DNA of 12,668 nucleotides from Deltaproteobacteria bacterium RBG_13_61_14 (lineage in GTDB: Bacteria; RBG-13-61-14). A program made the translations under genes and the position numbers. The number at the start of each line of letters is the position of its first letter. Position 1 is the first letter of the stretch. The notes below the pieces were generated by a model. The model worked only from the letters and a program-made list of their open reading frames with translations, was not told the DNA's origin and made no database searches. The DNA is taken from NCBI GenBank assembly GCA_001797815.1, contig MGQK01000004.1:7500-20167 (forward strand), written 5' to 3'. Positions 4,108-9,673 of the stretch are shown here, piece by piece.

Positions 4108-4314
4108 CCACATCCCGCAAGCGCCAAAACCTCGGTTTTTCTTGTCACCGCCTTGACGAATTCCCGGGCCGCGGCGCGAGCGCCTCCTGCCGCCTCGTTT
4201 CAATTGGGTCAATCTTGTTTGAAACTATTTCTTCCCGGCCTGGAAAATTATCCGCCTCCGGGCCCGGCATTGAAATTGCTCCTGGGAGGGAACGGCGAAG
4301 GGAAGCTCCGCTTC
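4108..4314 (+). other. Leader region of the sigma-28 gene
   Basis: This stretch, between the possible terminator and the chosen sigma start, encodes nothing recognisable; its in-frame translation upstream of ATG 4315 does not resemble a sigma factor. TTGAAA at 4219-4224 is a fair -35, but only a poor -10 (gaaaat, 4243-4248, 18 bases away) follows. A small AT-rich hairpin (AAAAC 4126-4130 with GTTTT 4135-4139) is present. No clear promoter is claimed. Confidence 0.3.
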
Positions 4315-5085
4315 ATGCAAACCAGTTCCGCCACGCAGCCGCGCTGGCCGCTTTCCGCTCCGGAACGGGAGCAATTCATCCTGGACTACGCGCCGCTGGT
4401 CCGCCGCATCGTGCACCGGATTGCGGTGCGGCTGCCCCCGCACCTGGATCTGGAAGACCTGGTCAACTCCGGCTTCCTCGGGCTCATGGACGCCCTGCAA
4501 AAATTTGATCCGGACCGCAACATCGCCTTCCGCACCTATGCCGAGTTCCGCATCCGGGGCGCCATCCTGGACGAGCTGCGGTCCCGCGACTGGCTGCCGC
4601 GCTCGGTGCGGGAGAAGGCGAACCGCCTGGAGCGGGTCAACCAGGAGGTGGAAGGCCGGCTGGGCCGGCCGGCGACCGAGGAAGAGCTGGCAGCGGGCAT
4701 GGGCCTGAGTCTGGAGTCGTTGCAGCAACTGCTCCAGCGGGTGGCCCCGATTTCCTTTCTCCGGCTGGACGACTGTCCCGGGCTGAGCGAATTTTCCGAG
4801 GATGACCTGCCCGACCTGCTCCTGGACCCTTCCGGCCAAGACCCCTCGGTCCAACTGGAGCTGGAGGAGTTGAAACAGTTCCTGGCCCAGGAGATCGAGC
4901 GGATGTCCGACCGGGAAAAGCTGGTGCTCAGCCTGTATTACCTGGAAGAGTTGACCCTGAAAGAGATCGGGGAGGTGATGAGCGTGACCGAGTCCCGGGT
5001 GTGCCAGTTGCACAGCCAGGCCCTGATCCGGCTGCGGGGAAGGATCAAGAAAAGGGTATGGCAAAGGTCGGCTCTTGCCCGGTAA
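4315..5085 (+). CDS. fliA: RNA polymerase sigma factor, FliA/WhiG (sigma-28) family
   Basis: This is an alternative sigma factor that directs RNA polymerase to flagellar-class promoters of the form TAAA-N15-GCCGATAA. The 256-residue product has the FliA/WhiG layout. Region 2 spans about 22-92 (YAPLVRRIVHRIAVRLPPHL, DLVNSGFLGLMDALQKFD, FRTYAEFRIRGAILDELRSR), running into WLPRSVR. Region 3 lies near 100-150. Region 4 spans about 188-245 with MSDREKLVLSLYYLEELTLKEIGEVM and a helix-turn-helix at TESRVCQLHSQA. ATG 4315 is preferred to the longer open frame from 4153 because the first 54 codons lack homology and GAAGGGA lies about 11 bases upstream. Its likely targets and its antagonist FlgM lie immediately downstream. 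Confidence 0.93.
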   Translation: MQTSSATQPRWPLSAPEREQFILDYAPLVRRIVHRIAVRLPPHLDLEDLVNSGFLGLMDALQKFDPDRNIAFRTYAEFRIRGAILDELRSRDWLPRSVREKANRLERVNQEVEGRLGRPATEEELAAGMGLSLESLQQLLQRVAPISFLRLDDCPGLSEFSEDDLPDLLLDPSGQDPSVQLELEELKQFLAQEIERMSDREKLVLSLYYLEELTLKEIGEVMSVTESRVCQLHSQALIRLRGRIKKRVWQRSALAR

Positions 5086-5107: not shown

Positions 5108-5181
5108 GCGGAAGCGGCAGGAGCGCCCGGAGTAAGAGGGTCCGGTTTGACCTGATTTTGTCCGAGAAAGGAAAAATTTTC

Positions 5182-5208
5182 TCAAGCAATGGGCCGATGA
5201 TCCGATAA
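5182..5208 (+). promoter_or_regulatory. Sigma-28-type promoter, copy A
   Basis: TCAA (5182-5185), a 15-base spacer, then TCCGATAA (5201-5208) closely matches the FliA consensus TAAA-N15-GCCGATAA: seven of eight bases match in the -10 and three of four in the -35. The same arrangement and spacing recur in copy B. The expected start of transcription is near 5215, giving a leader of about 14 bases that carries the RBS. Location directly behind a sigma-28 gene and before an anti-sigma-28 gene supports it. Confidence 0.6.
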
Positions 5209-5215
5209 CTTAATC

Positions 5216-5222
5216 GAGGAGG
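5216..5222 (+). promoter_or_regulatory. Strong RBS of flgM copy A, in a potential hairpin loop
   Basis: GAGGAGG lies 6 bases before ATG 5229. CTTAA (5209-5213) could pair with TTAAG (5224-5228), placing the RBS and its GGA triplets in the loop. The left arm would be transcribed only from a start upstream of the predicted sigma-28 start, so the hairpin is less likely on that transcript. Confidence 0.5.
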
Positions 5223-5228
5223 TTTAAG

Positions 5229-5555
5229 ATGAGAAAAAGCACACGAGATGAAAAGGCGATGGAGTGGAACAGCCAGGACGGGGTGAAGGCGTCCAGGGAG
5301 CGTAATATCAACCCAAGAGAATCCAGCCAGTTGGATTTAGCACGCATGTTGCCCTTCTCCCGCCCTCACCCGGAGCACAAGCCCCGGCCGGAAGTCGCTC
5401 CGGCCGAGAAGCGAGTGCTCGAGTTGAAAGCCCGGGTGGAAAAAGGTCAATATCGGGTGGATACTGTGCGACTGGCGGAAAAGATGATCCGCGAGACCTT
5501 GATCGAAAACCTGGCGACAGACAGGAGAAATAGGTCGAACCGGGAAGACTGTTGA
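5229..5555 (+). CDS. flgM: FlgM-like anti-sigma-28 factor, copy A
   Basis: FlgM binds the flagellar sigma factor and holds it inactive until it is exported through the completed hook-basal body. The 108-residue product ends in a typical FlgM domain (about 58-96): EKRVLELKARVEKGQYRVDTVRLAEKMI, which is the R-V-x-x-L-K/x-G-x-Y-x-V-D/A-x-x-L-A-E-K pattern of the family. The N-terminal half is polar and probably disordered, as in FlgM generally, but lacks the common short MKI start motif. It begins at ATG 5229 behind GAGGAGG. Its stop overlaps csrA in the sequence TGATG, so the two are translationally coupled. It lies directly downstream of the presumed target sigma factor. Confidence 0.82.
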   Translation: MRKSTRDEKAMEWNSQDGVKASRERNINPRESSQLDLARMLPFSRPHPEHKPRPEVAPAEKRVLELKARVEKGQYRVDTVRLAEKMIRETLIENLATDRRNRSNREDC

Positions 5556-5797
5556 TGCTGATTTTAACCCGCAAGATCGGGCAAAGCATCACCATTGCCG
5601 GCGACGTCCGGGTGACGGTGCAAGCCATCCGGGGCCAGCAGGTGCGCCTGGGCATCGAAGCGCCTCCCGAGATCCCCATCCTCCGCCAGGAACTGCTCCT
5701 GAAAAAGCCGGCAATCGCCGAAATCCGCCCTGCCCCAACCCCGGCCGCGGCCCGGGCCGAGCCCCTGCTCCGCCGCCGCCGCGCCGCACATAATTAA
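5555..5797 (+). CDS. csrA: CsrA/RsmA carbon storage regulator, copy A, C-terminally extended
   Basis: CsrA dimers bind GGA in RNA hairpin loops and block or stabilise mRNAs. Starting at ATG 5555, the protein begins MLILTRKIGQSI, the canonical CsrA N-terminus. A TTG three bases earlier is also open but would add one residue. The RNA-contact residues Leu4, Arg6 and Arg44 (PILRQEL) are conserved, and VRLGIEAPPEIPI matches beta-4/5. The domain ends near residue 50. Another 30 residues follow, rich in Ala/Pro and ending in EPLLRRRRAAHN, so the protein is 80 residues against about 61 in E. coli. The ATG overlaps the flgM stop. The stop codon lies just before a palindromic element. Confidence 0.93.
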   Translation: MLILTRKIGQSITIAGDVRVTVQAIRGQQVRLGIEAPPEIPILRQELLLKKPAIAEIRPAPTPAAARAEPLLRRRRAAHN

Positions 5798-5851
5798 GGG
5801 GACACCATACTTAATTAAACTTCAGTCATCTGAATTAAGTATGGTGTCCCC
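5798..5851 (+). repeat. REP/MITE-like palindrome between cassette copies
   Basis: GGGGACACCATACTTAATT (5798-5816) is exactly repeated in inverse as AATTAAGTATGGTGTCCCC (5833-5851), a 19-bp perfect stem around a 16-base spacer that can itself form TTCAG/CTGAA. It begins directly after the csrA-A stop codon. From memory, this motif is widespread between genes in deltaproteobacterial and related genomes, as a REP-like or miniature-element sequence. It can act as a hairpin at the transcript end but has no T run. Confidence 0.75.
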
Positions 5852-5872
5852 CGAACTCCGAACTCCGAACTC
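5852..5872 (+). repeat. Three tandem copies of a 7-bp unit
   Basis: CGAACTC occurs three times in perfect tandem, directly after the palindrome and 8 bases before the second cassette begins. It looks like a small slippage-generated repeat in noncoding DNA at the duplication junction. Confidence 0.8.
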
Positions 5873-5924
5873 GAGAAAGGGGGTCCGCTTTGACCTGATT
5901 TTGTCCGAGAAAGGAAAAATTTCC

Positions 5925-5951
5925 TCAAGGAATAGACGGATGATCCGATAA
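5925..5951 (+). promoter_or_regulatory. Sigma-28-type promoter, copy B
   Basis: TCAA (5925-5928), a 15-base spacer and TCCGATAA (5944-5951) repeat the copy A promoter with identical spacing. Both elements are intact while spacer bases differ, which suggests selection on the elements. Transcription would begin near 5958-5959, at the base of the hairpin holding the flgM-B RBS. Confidence 0.6.
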
Positions 5952-5958
5952 CTCAATC

Positions 5959-5974
5959 AGACAAGGAGTAGTCT
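5959..5974 (+). promoter_or_regulatory. RBS hairpin resembling a CsrA target, flgM copy B
   Basis: AGAC (5959-5962) pairs with GTCT (5971-5974) around the loop AAGGAGTA, which contains the Shine-Dalgarno AAGGAG (5963-5968), 9 bases before ATG 5978. The stretch ACAAGGA matches the core ACARGGA of the CsrA SELEX consensus, and the GGA lies in a hairpin loop as CsrA prefers. The stem is only 4 bp, so this is a candidate autoregulatory site, not a proven one. Confidence 0.45.
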
Positions 5975-5977
5975 AAG

Positions 5978-6304
5978 ATGAAACCGAGCACAAAGGATCA
6001 AAAGGAAGCAAAGTGGACCAGCGGGAGCCAGGTGTTGTTGTTCAGGGCCAGTAAGCTCAGCCCAGGAGGATCTGGACACCAGGCCTTAGCACGGGTGCTG
6101 CCCTTCTCCCGCCCTCGCCCTGAGCGCAGACCCCGGCCGGGGGTCGCTCCGGCGGAGAAGCGAGTGTCCGAGTTAAAAGCCCGGGTGGAAAAGGGTCTCT
6201 ATCGGGTGGATACGGTGCGGCTGGCGGAAAAGATGATCCGCGAGGCCTTGCTCGAAAACCTCGCGACGGCCAGGAGAAAAGGATCGAGCGGGGCAGTCCG
6301 TTGA
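5978..6304 (+). CDS. flgM: FlgM-like anti-sigma-28 factor, copy B
   Basis: This is a 108-residue paralogue of the protein at 5229-5555, with the FlgM domain at about 58-96: EKRVSELKARVEKGLYRVDTVRLAEKMI. It differs from copy A at only about five of 41 positions in that segment. The N-terminal half (residues 1-38) has changed heavily, although ARVLPFSRP and the proline/arginine stretch before the domain are retained. Conservation of the sigma-binding half suggests both copies still bind a sigma-28 factor. The two may differ in export or stability, since the FlgM N-terminus carries the secretion signal; that is inference. The RBS is AAGGAG at 5963-5968. The stop overlaps csrA copy B as TGATG. 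Confidence 0.82.
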   Translation: MKPSTKDQKEAKWTSGSQVLLFRASKLSPGGSGHQALARVLPFSRPRPERRPRPGVAPAEKRVSELKARVEKGLYRVDTVRLAEKMIREALLENLATARRKGSSGAVR

Positions 6305-6540
6305 TGTTGATTTTAACCCGCAAGATCGGGCAAAGCATCATCATCAACGGCCACATCCGGGTGACGGTGCAAGGAATCCGGGGTCGGCAGGTGCGCCTGG
6401 GCATCGAAGCGCCTCCGGAGATCCCCATCCTTCGCCAGGAACTGCTCTTGAAAAAGCCGGCGGTCGCCGAAATCCGCCCGGCCCCAACCCCGGCCGCGGC
6501 CCGGACCGAGCCGTTGCTCCGCCGCCGCCGCGCCGGTTGA
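6304..6540 (+). CDS. csrA: CsrA/RsmA carbon storage regulator, copy B, C-terminally extended
   Basis: This 78-residue CsrA paralogue starts at ATG 6304, overlapping the flgM-B stop. It keeps MLILTRKIGQSI, Arg6, Arg44 and the APPEIPILRQEL segment, so RNA binding should be intact. It differs from copy A at eight positions (for example D17H and Q28R), mostly on the beta-2/3 region. Its C-terminal extension is nearly identical to that of copy A and ends EPLLRRRRAG. The gene ends 2 bases from the stop of the convergent protease gene, with no room for a terminator, so transcripts from the two sides probably overlap. Two CsrA chains could form heterodimers; that is speculation. Confidence 0.93.
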   Translation: MLILTRKIGQSIIINGHIRVTVQGIRGRQVRLGIEAPPEIPILRQELLLKKPAVAEIRPAPTPAAARTEPLLRRRRAG

Positions 6541-6542
6541 GG

Positions 6543-8087
6543 CTACTCCTGCGGAATGGCGACGAACAAGTTGTTGCCCTGGCGGTTGATCACCAACAGG
6601 ATCGGCCCGCCCTTGGCCGCGGCATAAGCCTGGCGCAAATCGCTCACGTTCTCCACCGGCTTTTGGTTGACGCTCTGGATCACGTCGCCTTCCGCCAACC
6701 CGGCCTCGTCCGCCCGGCTGCCCGGCTGGACCGAGGTGATCAAGACGCCCCGGAGGTCCGGGTCCAGGTTGAGCTGCTGGGCCAGGTCCGGCGTCAGGGT
6801 CTGGCCCCGGAGGCCCAGCGGCGCTTCGCTCTCCGAACCCGGCCCCGGGCCGGCCCCTGCCGCCTCTTGTTCTTTCATTTCGCCCACGGTCACGGTCTTG
6901 TCCTGGTATTCGCCTTGCCGGAAAATTTTCAGATTCACATTGGTGCCGGGCGGAGTCATGGCGATCTGGTTGCGGAAGTGCATCATGTCCTCCAGGGGCT
7001 TGCCGTCCATCTCCACGATAATATCTCCCGCCTTGATCCCGGCCGCCTCCGCCGGGTTTCCGGGAATGACCTCCGCCACCAGGGCGCCCCGGGCATCGGG
7101 CAGGCCAAAGGAGCGGGCCAGGGCCGGCGTCAAATCCTGCAGGCTGACGCCGAGAAATCCCCGGATCACCTTGCCCTGCTGGAGCAGGCTGTCCATGACC
7201 ATCTTGGCCATGTTGGAGGGGATGGCAAAGCCCACGCCCTCGTTGCCCCCGCTCCTGGAGGCGATGGCGGTATTGATCCCGACCAGTTCTCCCCGCAAAT
7301 CCACCAACGCGCCGCCGGAGTTGCCGGGGTTGATCGCCGCGTCGGTCTGGATAAAGTCCTCGTAGTCCGCGATCCCCACCCGGGCGCGGCCCTTGGCGCT
7401 GATGATGCCCAGGGTCACGGTCTGGTTCAGGCCCATCGGGTTTCCGACCGCCAGCACCGATTGCCCGATCTCGATCCGGTCCGAATCGCCGAAGGGCAGG
7501 GTGGGCAGGTCCGCGGCTTCGATCTTGATCAAGGCCACGTCGGTCTTGGGGTCGGTGCCGATGATCCTGGCGTCGAAGGAGCGCTGGTCGGCCAGCAGGA
7601 CTTTCACTTTATCCGCGCCGGCCACCACGTGGTTGTTGGTCAGGATGTAGCCGTCCGGGCTCACGATCACGCCGGAGCCGATCCCGCCTTCCCGGCGTTT
7701 CTGCGGATTCTCGGGCATTCCGGGGCCGAAGAAGCGGCGGAAGAAGGGATCCATCAAAAAGGGGGACATGGGGACTTGCACGGTCCTCTGAAAGGACACG
7801 TTGACCACCGCGGGCATAGCCCGTGCCGCCGCGGCGATCACGGCTTTTTCATACTCGCCGGTGCCCTGGGGCAGAGGCGGCAGAGGCGCCGGCGCTTGCG
7901 GAGGAGGCGGGGGGACTTCCTCGGTCGGTTGCTCGGAAGGGAAGAAACGCTTTTCCAGGTCCGAGAGCTTGAACCCCTTTGAGCGCTGTCCCAGGTAGAG
8001 GCCCAGGCCCAGGCCGATGATCAGGACCACCAGGAAACCCAGGACCGTGCTTCGCGCGGAGCCTTCAAAAGAATGGTTGGTTTTCAT
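6543..8087 (-). CDS. DegP/DegQ/HtrA-family serine protease, membrane-anchored, two PDZ domains
   Basis: This is a periplasmic protein-quality-control protease and chaperone of family S1C. The 514-residue product has one N-terminal membrane segment (about 13-33) with no evident cleavage site, then a proline-rich linker (59-73). The trypsin-like domain spans about 80-305, with the triad His153 (LTNNHVV), Asp183 (KTDVALIK) and Ser257 (NPGNSGGA). PDZ1 is at about 308-400 (GFLGVSLQDL, GIKAGDIIVEMDGKPL) and PDZ2 at about 425-512 (RGVLITSV, GLAEGDVIQSVNQKPV). The layout is that of DegP/DegQ. The start is ATG with GGAGG (8095-8099) 7 bases upstream, and it overlaps the stop of the upstream hydrolase gene by ATGA, so the two form an operon. 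Confidence 0.96.
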   Translation of the reverse strand: MKTNHSFEGSARSTVLGFLVVLIIGLGLGLYLGQRSKGFKLSDLEKRFFPSEQPTEEVPPPPPQAPAPLPPLPQGTGEYEKAVIAAAARAMPAVVNVSFQRTVQVPMSPFLMDPFFRRFFGPGMPENPQKRREGGIGSGVIVSPDGYILTNNHVVAGADKVKVLLADQRSFDARIIGTDPKTDVALIKIEAADLPTLPFGDSDRIEIGQSVLAVGNPMGLNQTVTLGIISAKGRARVGIADYEDFIQTDAAINPGNSGGALVDLRGELVGINTAIASRSGGNEGVGFAIPSNMAKMVMDSLLQQGKVIRGFLGVSLQDLTPALARSFGLPDARGALVAEVIPGNPAEAAGIKAGDIIVEMDGKPLEDMMHFRNQIAMTPPGTNVNLKIFRQGEYQDKTVTVGEMKEQEAAGAGPGPGSESEAPLGLRGQTLTPDLAQQLNLDPDLRGVLITSVQPGSRADEAGLAEGDVIQSVNQKPVENVSDLRQAYAAAKGGPILLVINRQGNNLFVAIPQE

Positions 8088-9673
8088 TTTTCAACCTCCG
8101 ACCTTTTTTGGAAAATCTTCTGGTCAGGAAAAGCGGCAAAGGCGGGCGGGTTTAACTCCCGGCCGCACGCTTCAGCCCCCGCCCCTTCTGCACATAAACG
8201 GCACTGGTCCAGCCATTGCCGGACCCGGACGTTGTCCGGTTCTTTCTCCAGGGCTAAGCTTAAGTCTCTCTGCGCCTCTAAAAAGTTCCCTTTTCGCATC
8301 TGCTCATAACCCGCGCGGGCCTCGAAAAAACCGGTGGCGGGAATTTCTTCGCCCAAGGCTTCGCCGGTAAAATCCACCTCCACCCAGCGGTCCAGCGGCG
8401 AAGGTGTGCGGCCGATCCCGGCCCACAAACGGTTGCCGGCAAGGTCATAGACCACGCTCAGGCTGGTCCGGTCCGAGCCGATGGCCCGCTCGCCCGTGAA
8501 CCCGCAGCCTTGCGCTTCTTGCGGGTAGGGATCGCGGAGCATGGCGATCATCTCTGCCGGACCGATGGGTCCGGCCGGGGACTGGATCAGCTCCTGATAG
8601 CGGAGATACCGGGAAAAGATGCGGCCCCGAAAGACCGGGGCATCCGCGGACAGCTCACCGCCGGCCAGGCACGCCAGCTTGCCCTCGCCCCAATCGTAGC
8701 CACCCATTTGCTCGCTGGCAAAGACATTGGCGCTCCACACCGCGCCCTCTGCCATCTCCCGCACCGCTGACTCGGTCCCGAAGGTCTCCACCGCCACCGC
8801 TCGCCCCTCCTCCCGGCTGGCAATGATGACAATGTCCCCCAACGGCCGGCGCTGGGAAGTGATAATCTTTACGGCCTGGTCGAGCGTCCGCGCCTGCTCC
8901 AGCACCTGGCGGACGGCAAACACGAACGGCATGGGCGTCTGGGGAACCTTTTTAAGCTGGTCTCTCGTCTCCGGTTTATCAAGCAGCCGGGTGTTGTCCC
9001 AGGCAATCGAGATCCCGGCCTCGTTCATCCCGGTGTAGGAGCCGGCAAAGCCCAGGTAATTGACAGACACGAACTTGAGCTTGCCCGCGGGATGAAAAAA
9101 GATCACCGCTTTAAAGGCGTCGGTGTAGGCCTGGCCGCGATCGGTCAGGTCAAAGTTGTAGCCGTGCCACAGCCCGCCGCGGGTCTTGGGCGGGCCCACG
9201 GCGATTTCGCTGCACCCGAAGAGCTCCGCGATCTCCCAGATCACGTTAAAGATCAGCAGCTCGTTGAAGCTGATCCCCGAGCCTTCGGCCATGCCCTGGA
9301 GCTCTTCCTTGTAATCCGCCGGAATCTTCGGCAGGAACCGGCGCGCCCAGTAGGTGAGAAGCGGCTTGGCCAAAGGGCCCACCAGCCAGGACGGGAGGCC
9401 GGTGGAGCGGTGAGCATAATCGCGGAGAAAAGCCCAGCTTTCCTGGCGGAGCTTGGCCAGCTCTTCCTTCATCAGGGCGCCTTGCTCATAGCCCAGCTCA
9501 AACGGCCGGCCATACAGGTGCAGAATCCGAACACCCGAGACCTCCTCCAACCGCCCCTCGCCGAAATGATCGCCCCGCTTCACGAACGCCTTGCGCTCGA
9601 CCCGCTCGGTCGGGGCTATAACGAGCAGCGCCAGCCCCAGAGCCAGCGCGGCGTTGACAAGCCTCCCCCTCAT
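8084..9673 (-). CDS. Exported C45-type Ntn hydrolase / acyltransferase with TPR-like tail
   Basis: The 529-residue product begins with a short basic segment and hydrophobic residues 6-20, a signal peptide or anchor. It follows the AAT-like (peptidase C45, acyl-CoA:6-APA acyltransferase) pattern. An N-terminal HLYGRPFELGYEQGAL (52-67) is followed by a helical region, then FGCSEIAV (152-159), whose Cys154 is the likely N-terminal nucleophile exposed by autoprocessing, and LWHGYNFDLT (168-177). SYTGMNEAGISIAWDN (212-227), LGDIVIIA (278-285) and SDRTSLSVVYD (400-410) fit the Ntn core. A single TPR-like repeat lies near 452-485 (AGYEQMRKGNFLEAQRDLSLAL). Substrate is unknown: amide, peptide or acyl-ester bonds are all possible. 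It is the first gene of an operon with the DegP-type protease. Confidence 0.8.
   Translation of the reverse strand: MRGRLVNAALALGLALLVIAPTERVERKAFVKRGDHFGEGRLEEVSGVRILHLYGRPFELGYEQGALMKEELAKLRQESWAFLRDYAHRSTGLPSWLVGPLAKPLLTYWARRFLPKIPADYKEELQGMAEGSGISFNELLIFNVIWEIAELFGCSEIAVGPPKTRGGLWHGYNFDLTDRGQAYTDAFKAVIFFHPAGKLKFVSVNYLGFAGSYTGMNEAGISIAWDNTRLLDKPETRDQLKKVPQTPMPFVFAVRQVLEQARTLDQAVKIITSQRRPLGDIVIIASREEGRAVAVETFGTESAVREMAEGAVWSANVFASEQMGGYDWGEGKLACLAGGELSADAPVFRGRIFSRYLRYQELIQSPAGPIGPAEMIAMLRDPYPQEAQGCGFTGERAIGSDRTSLSVVYDLAGNRLWAGIGRTPSPLDRWVEVDFTGEALGEEIPATGFFEARAGYEQMRKGNFLEAQRDLSLALEKEPDNVRVRQWLDQCRLCAEGAGAEACGRELNPPAFAAFPDQKIFQKRSEVEK

Follow-up and report, generated by a model that had tools for sequence, protein, structure and literature searches.

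FlgM carries its export signal in the N-terminal part and binds sigma-28 through its C-terminal part. A link between FlgM and CsrA is provided in Bacillus subtilis by the flgM-flgN-flgK-flgL-fliW-csrA operon, which depends on sigma-28 (SigD). Sigma-28-family factors can also work without flagella, as the chlamydial sigma-28 does. FliA was present in 41% of the non-motile genomes in a survey on the loss of flagellar genes (PMC12199754); it is thus common for the sigma factor alone to be kept. In Legionella oakridgensis, a non-flagellated species from which the flagellar regulon is missing, only the FliA and FlgM homologues have been kept (PMC5655016, citing Tlapak et al. 2017). As summarized in the same source, flgM of this species is sigma-28-dependent and its product is probably released by degradation, not by secretion (PMC5655016).

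The locus described here lies in a window of 12,668 nucleotides (the whole stretch of DNA that was analysed, to which the coordinates refer) from Deltaproteobacteria bacterium RBG_13_61_14, whose 4.74-Mb genome is a 95.1% complete draft of 132 contigs. A ribosomal-protein/rpoA operon is followed in the window by a PGA_cap-family gene, a sigma-28-family gene (4315-5085) and two cassette units (5130-5797 and 5873-6540), the sigma-28 gene and both cassettes being read on the forward strand. The two units are direct repeats of about 668 bp with 75 bp between them. Each contains a sigma-28-type promoter that exactly matches the motif TCAA-N15-TCCGATAA with canonical spacing (5182-5208 in copy 1, 5925-5951 in copy 2), a 108-codon FlgM-domain gene (flgM1, 5229-5555; flgM2, 5978-6304) and a csrA gene (csrA1, 80 aa, 5555-5797; csrA2, 78 aa, 6304-6540), the stop codon TGA of flgM overlapping the ATG of csrA (TGATG). 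The repeat search in the window aligned an ungapped block of 300 nt (5222-5521 with 5971-6270, 78% identity) and a second block of 86 nt (5130-5215 with 5873-5958, 90% identity), both far above the background matches, which are 25-41 nt long. The first-pass annotation had described two direct copies, each with a promoter, an anti-sigma-28 gene and a csrA coupled by TGATG, behind a sigma-28 gene. The repeat search, the reading frames and the HMMs confirm this layout, and the gene directly before the cassettes matches FliA_WhiG (TIGR02479) above the cut-off. The copies diverge by 10% in their promoter blocks and by 22% along most of flgM. With 10-22% divergence along the greater part of the units, they are no assembly duplicate, and judged from these alignments the duplication is real and not recent. 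A contaminant is also unlikely, since the locus is on the same contig as the ribosomal-protein operon.

The two copies are separated by a stretch of about 75 bp (5798-5872) that carries a repeat element and was absent from the first-pass annotation. This element is a REP-like palindrome (5798-5851, no strand), a perfect inverted repeat with 19-bp arms (GGGGACACCATACTTAATT) whose half-sites occur 47 times in the genome at up to 1 mismatch, against 0 for a control pattern. It abuts the stop codon of csrA1, whose product ends in RRRRAAHN instead of RRRRAG; the insertion of the palindrome probably changed this end. A short tandem CCGAACTC/CGAACTC repeat (5851-5874) adjoins the palindrome. The blocks that precede the two promoters (5138-5181 and 5881-5924) are nearly identical and more conserved than synonymous sites, and weak terminator-like matches, with a hairpin followed by a T-rich stretch, are seen at 5138 and 5881. 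This upstream block may form a weak terminator-like hairpin behind fliA, or may be a regulatory site. No Rfam family was found in the window. Elsewhere in it, the minus strand carries a gene (8084-9673) for a 529-aa protein with an acyltransferase domain (AAT, PF03417), next to an HtrA/DegP-type protease gene.

The product of the fliA-like gene (256 aa from the ATG at 4315) scores 261 bits against FliA_WhiG TIGR02479 (cut-off 189.6) and 245 bits against the FliA subfamily PRK06986 (cut-off 201), with sigma regions 2, 3 and 4 all present. Of the 53 columns with conservation of 95% or more among 80 relatives, it keeps 48, and it is the sole match at E<=1e-20 in its genome. The closest relatives share at most 52% identity with it in the matched segment. 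In a tree of FliA proteins, it groups with a small set that includes Thermodesulfobacteriota sequences, on a long branch, so that its origin is uncertain. One weak sigma-70-like site precedes fliA (4219-4248), in a number near that expected by chance, and no convincing sigma-54 site was found for this gene.

The matches of the two FlgM proteins to PF04316 (29.5 bits for flgM1, 28.7 bits for flgM2, cut-off 25) concern residues 60-87 and cover only positions 27-54 of the 55 of the profile, its C-terminal half. The FlgM equivalog TIGR03824 is missed (28.7 and 25.7 bits for a cut-off of 40.75, positions 67-96 of 98 only), and the HMM search found no known domain and nothing FlgM-like in the N-terminal part of either protein. 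From these matches, both products are FlgM-domain proteins and not orthodox flagellar FlgM. Their identity and intactness, which had been singled out for checking, are upheld by domain matches above the cut-off and by genes free of frameshift. They are the only two FlgM matches over the cut-off in the genome, both being at this locus; a third, sub-threshold match elsewhere (20.4 bits, inside a 517-aa frame) is probably due to chance.

Comparison of copy 1 with copy 2 reveals that the two parts of flgM have evolved differently. Codons 1-36 show a dN/dS of 0.97 and 31% amino-acid identity, versus 0.32 and 84% for codons 37-92, and codons 1-77 of csrA show 0.29 and 90%. In its N-terminal part, flgM has a significant excess of nonsynonymous differences (Fisher p 8e-8), but not of synonymous ones (p 0.24). 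The contrast between a conserved FlgM sigma-binding half and CsrA core and diverged FlgM N-termini, which the first-pass annotation had noted, is therefore borne out by dN/dS. No close relative carrying the cassette was found, so the comparison is restricted to the two copies of this one genome, and it is from them alone that conservation over time is read. On this comparison, the N-terminal drift, with dN/dS near 1, agrees better with lost constraint than with a new task.

Both CsrA proteins match PF02599 (73.4 bits for csrA1, 74.9 bits for csrA2, cut-off 27) and are the only CsrA matches in the genome. The equivalog TIGR00202 is missed (62.1-64 bits for the copies, versus a cut-off of 70.1-73); its match stops at residue 48 and the C-terminal tail is unusual. 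LTRK and R44, which belong to the known face of CsrA that binds GGA-containing RNA, are present in the aligned sequences. In both flgM leaders (5205-5228 and 5948-5977), the ribosome-binding GGA sits in the loop of a small hairpin whose stem differs between copies (CTTAA...TTAAG in copy 1, AGAC...GTCT in copy 2). Autoregulation by CsrA via these leaders is an idea only: they fold no better than shuffles, and 12% and 22% of shuffled leaders have stems of this length by chance, which is not significant.

Searches of the 95%-complete genome for four flagellar families, all positive in flagellated control genomes, were negative. Neither flagellin nor the FlhA/SctV export-gate family (FHIPEP) nor flagellar rod/hook domain proteins nor FliW were found, a point missing from the first-pass annotation. 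The cassette is therefore not flagellar control in the ordinary sense. With both FliW and flagellin missing from the genome, a FliW-CsrA-flagellin circuit lacks two of its members. In the same way, export of FlgM through the flagellar type III gate would lack the gate itself, no member of the FHIPEP family being encoded. Since the flagellar genes are absent, an N-terminal export signal on FlgM would serve nothing. The unconstrained N-terminus of FlgM and the absent export gate thus cohere, drift being expected without export.

The promoter motif was searched genome-wide at all spacings from 9 to 21. This led to 12 sites, 6 with canonical spacing (2 in the window and 4 elsewhere, one each on contigs C8, C9, C76 and C88) versus 6 over the twelve other spacings. 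The 4 canonical sites outside the window compare with about 0.5 expected (Poisson p 0.002). This test has few sites and was conceived once the motif was known from the locus; since the two window sites define the motif, only these four count. Sites of the TAAA-N15-GCCGATAA type are enriched at the canonical spacing in the genome, their recognition by FliA being predicted only. Those on C8, C76 and C88 are in intergenic gaps and the genes downstream are in sense orientation. The C8 site, between divergent genes, is 58 nt before a gene for an SLC13-type anion symporter (PF00939, 260 bits), and the C76 site is 28 nt before a gene for a PAS-containing histidine kinase. The C88 site (TAAAGTTT-N11-TCCGATAA) is 14 nt before a gene for a membrane protein of 475 aa that lacks a Pfam match and by eye looks like a sensor; a receiver-kinase hybrid comes next. 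The C9 site is about 20 nt before the ATG of a gene partly masked by N. At least 5 of the 6 wrongly spaced sites are inside or overlap long reading frames. No flagellar or chemotaxis gene was found behind the candidate promoters outside the window. One-mismatch sites were also seen on C2 (L138:4485-4511, reverse strand of the locus), ahead of genes for a receiver-only response regulator and then an NtrC-type regulator, and at L140:3234-3260, ahead of the gene for a DUF1571 protein whose N-terminus is signal-like.

It is fairly probable that these genes constitute a free-standing FliA-FlgM-CsrA feedback module, kept after the loss of the flagellum and having CsrA as a main output. FliA would transcribe both flgM-csrA units from the canonical sigma-28 promoters that precede them, and FlgM, through the C-terminal part that carries the domain, would bind FliA and shut it off, which would result in negative feedback. 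The TGATG overlap suggests that translation of csrA is coupled to that of flgM. Because of this coupling, every round of FliA activity would also yield CsrA, making post-transcriptional control an output of the module. A further small set of genes with the same promoter, encoding the SLC13-type anion transporter, two sensors and perhaps others, could be under the same control, and the duplication would double the dose of FlgM and CsrA. As the genome encodes no flagellar or injectisome export gate, FlgM could not be released by secretion; by analogy with L. oakridgensis and Helicobacter pylori, regulated proteolysis would be the likeliest way. A more specific formulation, a stand-alone switch with CsrA as dedicated output and a truncated, non-exported FlgM, doubled in tandem and rewired to sensors and a transporter, has about an even chance of being right.

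Looking at FliA neighbourhoods, 80 in all, revealed no flgM-csrA pair directly after fliA. The nearest approach is a cluster in which csrA and flgM follow fliA at a distance of 3-5 kb, for example that of locus L061. The closest FliA relatives that were inspected are in or beside flhB-flhA-flhF-flhG-fliA operons (names read from translations). The search of 386 genomes with the FlgM protein gave weak matches only, none having a csrA within about 1.5 kb. Around the FlgM matches from other genomes, a csrA is as close as 1.5 kb in one case only, where it is read from the opposite strand. A scan of genome contigs with the FlgM protein found no relative. Two genomes of the same order, from a class sampled by three genomes, were searched and contain neither FlgM nor FliA. 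Within this limited sample, the fliA-flgM-csrA arrangement appears rare; the first-pass annotation had called it unfamiliar, and none of the FlgM and FliA neighbourhoods inspected contains it. In the same way, a literature search did not find a non-exported FlgM coupled to csrA, doubled, and accounting for the only CsrA genes of a genome.

The position of the nearest FliA relatives in full flagellar operons, together with the lack of FliA and FlgM in the same-order genomes and the degenerate N-terminus of FlgM, could also be explained if the locus were a decaying remnant of a recently lost flagellar regulon, FliA, FlgM and CsrA being merely undeleted so far. This is rather unlikely, as none of the five genes is broken, constraint has acted on CsrA and on the sigma-binding part of FlgM since the duplication, and FliA keeps its near-invariant residues (48/53). 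Furthermore, the genome has other correctly spaced promoters, and the cassette was duplicated, not lost. A draft of 132 contigs that is 95% complete also leaves room for flagellar genes in its missing 5%, in which case the locus would belong to a normal flagellar regulon whose flgM-csrA unit is duplicated. This is quite improbable: all four families are absent, some of them being multi-copy where a flagellum is encoded and commonly located in more than one cluster, FlgM has no recognisable N-terminal part and no candidate promoter outside the window precedes a flagellar or chemotaxis gene. Lastly, that the N-terminal 36 residues of FlgM, 31% identical between copies that are otherwise alike, sense different signals or partners and bring two inputs to one sigma factor is very doubtful, as a dN/dS near 1 fits absent constraint, this part has no known domain, and the copies hardly differ in their promoters and CsrA cores. 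The first-pass annotation had proposed copies that are functional and possibly specialised; the constraint on the sigma-binding part and on CsrA speaks for the former, but the N-terminal dN/dS near 1 speaks against the latter.

A feedback module kept after flagellum loss would represent a natural case in which a remnant of the best-known assembly checkpoint of bacteria persists after the loss of the machine that it watched. In this cassette, FlgM release without secretion becomes directly testable. It also suggests that a sigma-28 switch can be kept mainly for the sake of CsrA, and that the presence of fliA, flgM and csrA in a genome is no proof of swimming.

The B. subtilis operon is a full flagellar operon in which the FliW antagonist and the flagellin target are present, whereas both are absent here. 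Furthermore, its flgM and csrA are neither directly coupled nor duplicated, while those of this locus are coupled and doubled. L. oakridgensis is similar in possessing FliA and FlgM without a flagellum and sets a precedent for both remaining functional in that state, but the account given in PMC5655016 mentions neither a tandem copy nor a csrA that is coupled to flgM, and presents a gammaproteobacterial pathogen with a virulence-related regulon. According to the same source, H. pylori FlgM is not released by export, as proposed here; however, H. pylori is flagellated, and its FlgM is inactivated in a cell that possesses the export apparatus (PMC5655016). Streptomyces WhiG-RsiG, as described in PMC8325347, also comprises a sigma-28-family factor in a bacterium without flagella. 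The anti-sigma factors of Streptomyces (RsiG) and of chlamydiae (partner-switching) belong to other families, and these systems, as described, include no FlgM and no coupled CsrA. Thus, a sigma-28/FlgM pair without a flagellum is already known, and the new part of this locus is the coupled, duplicated csrA.
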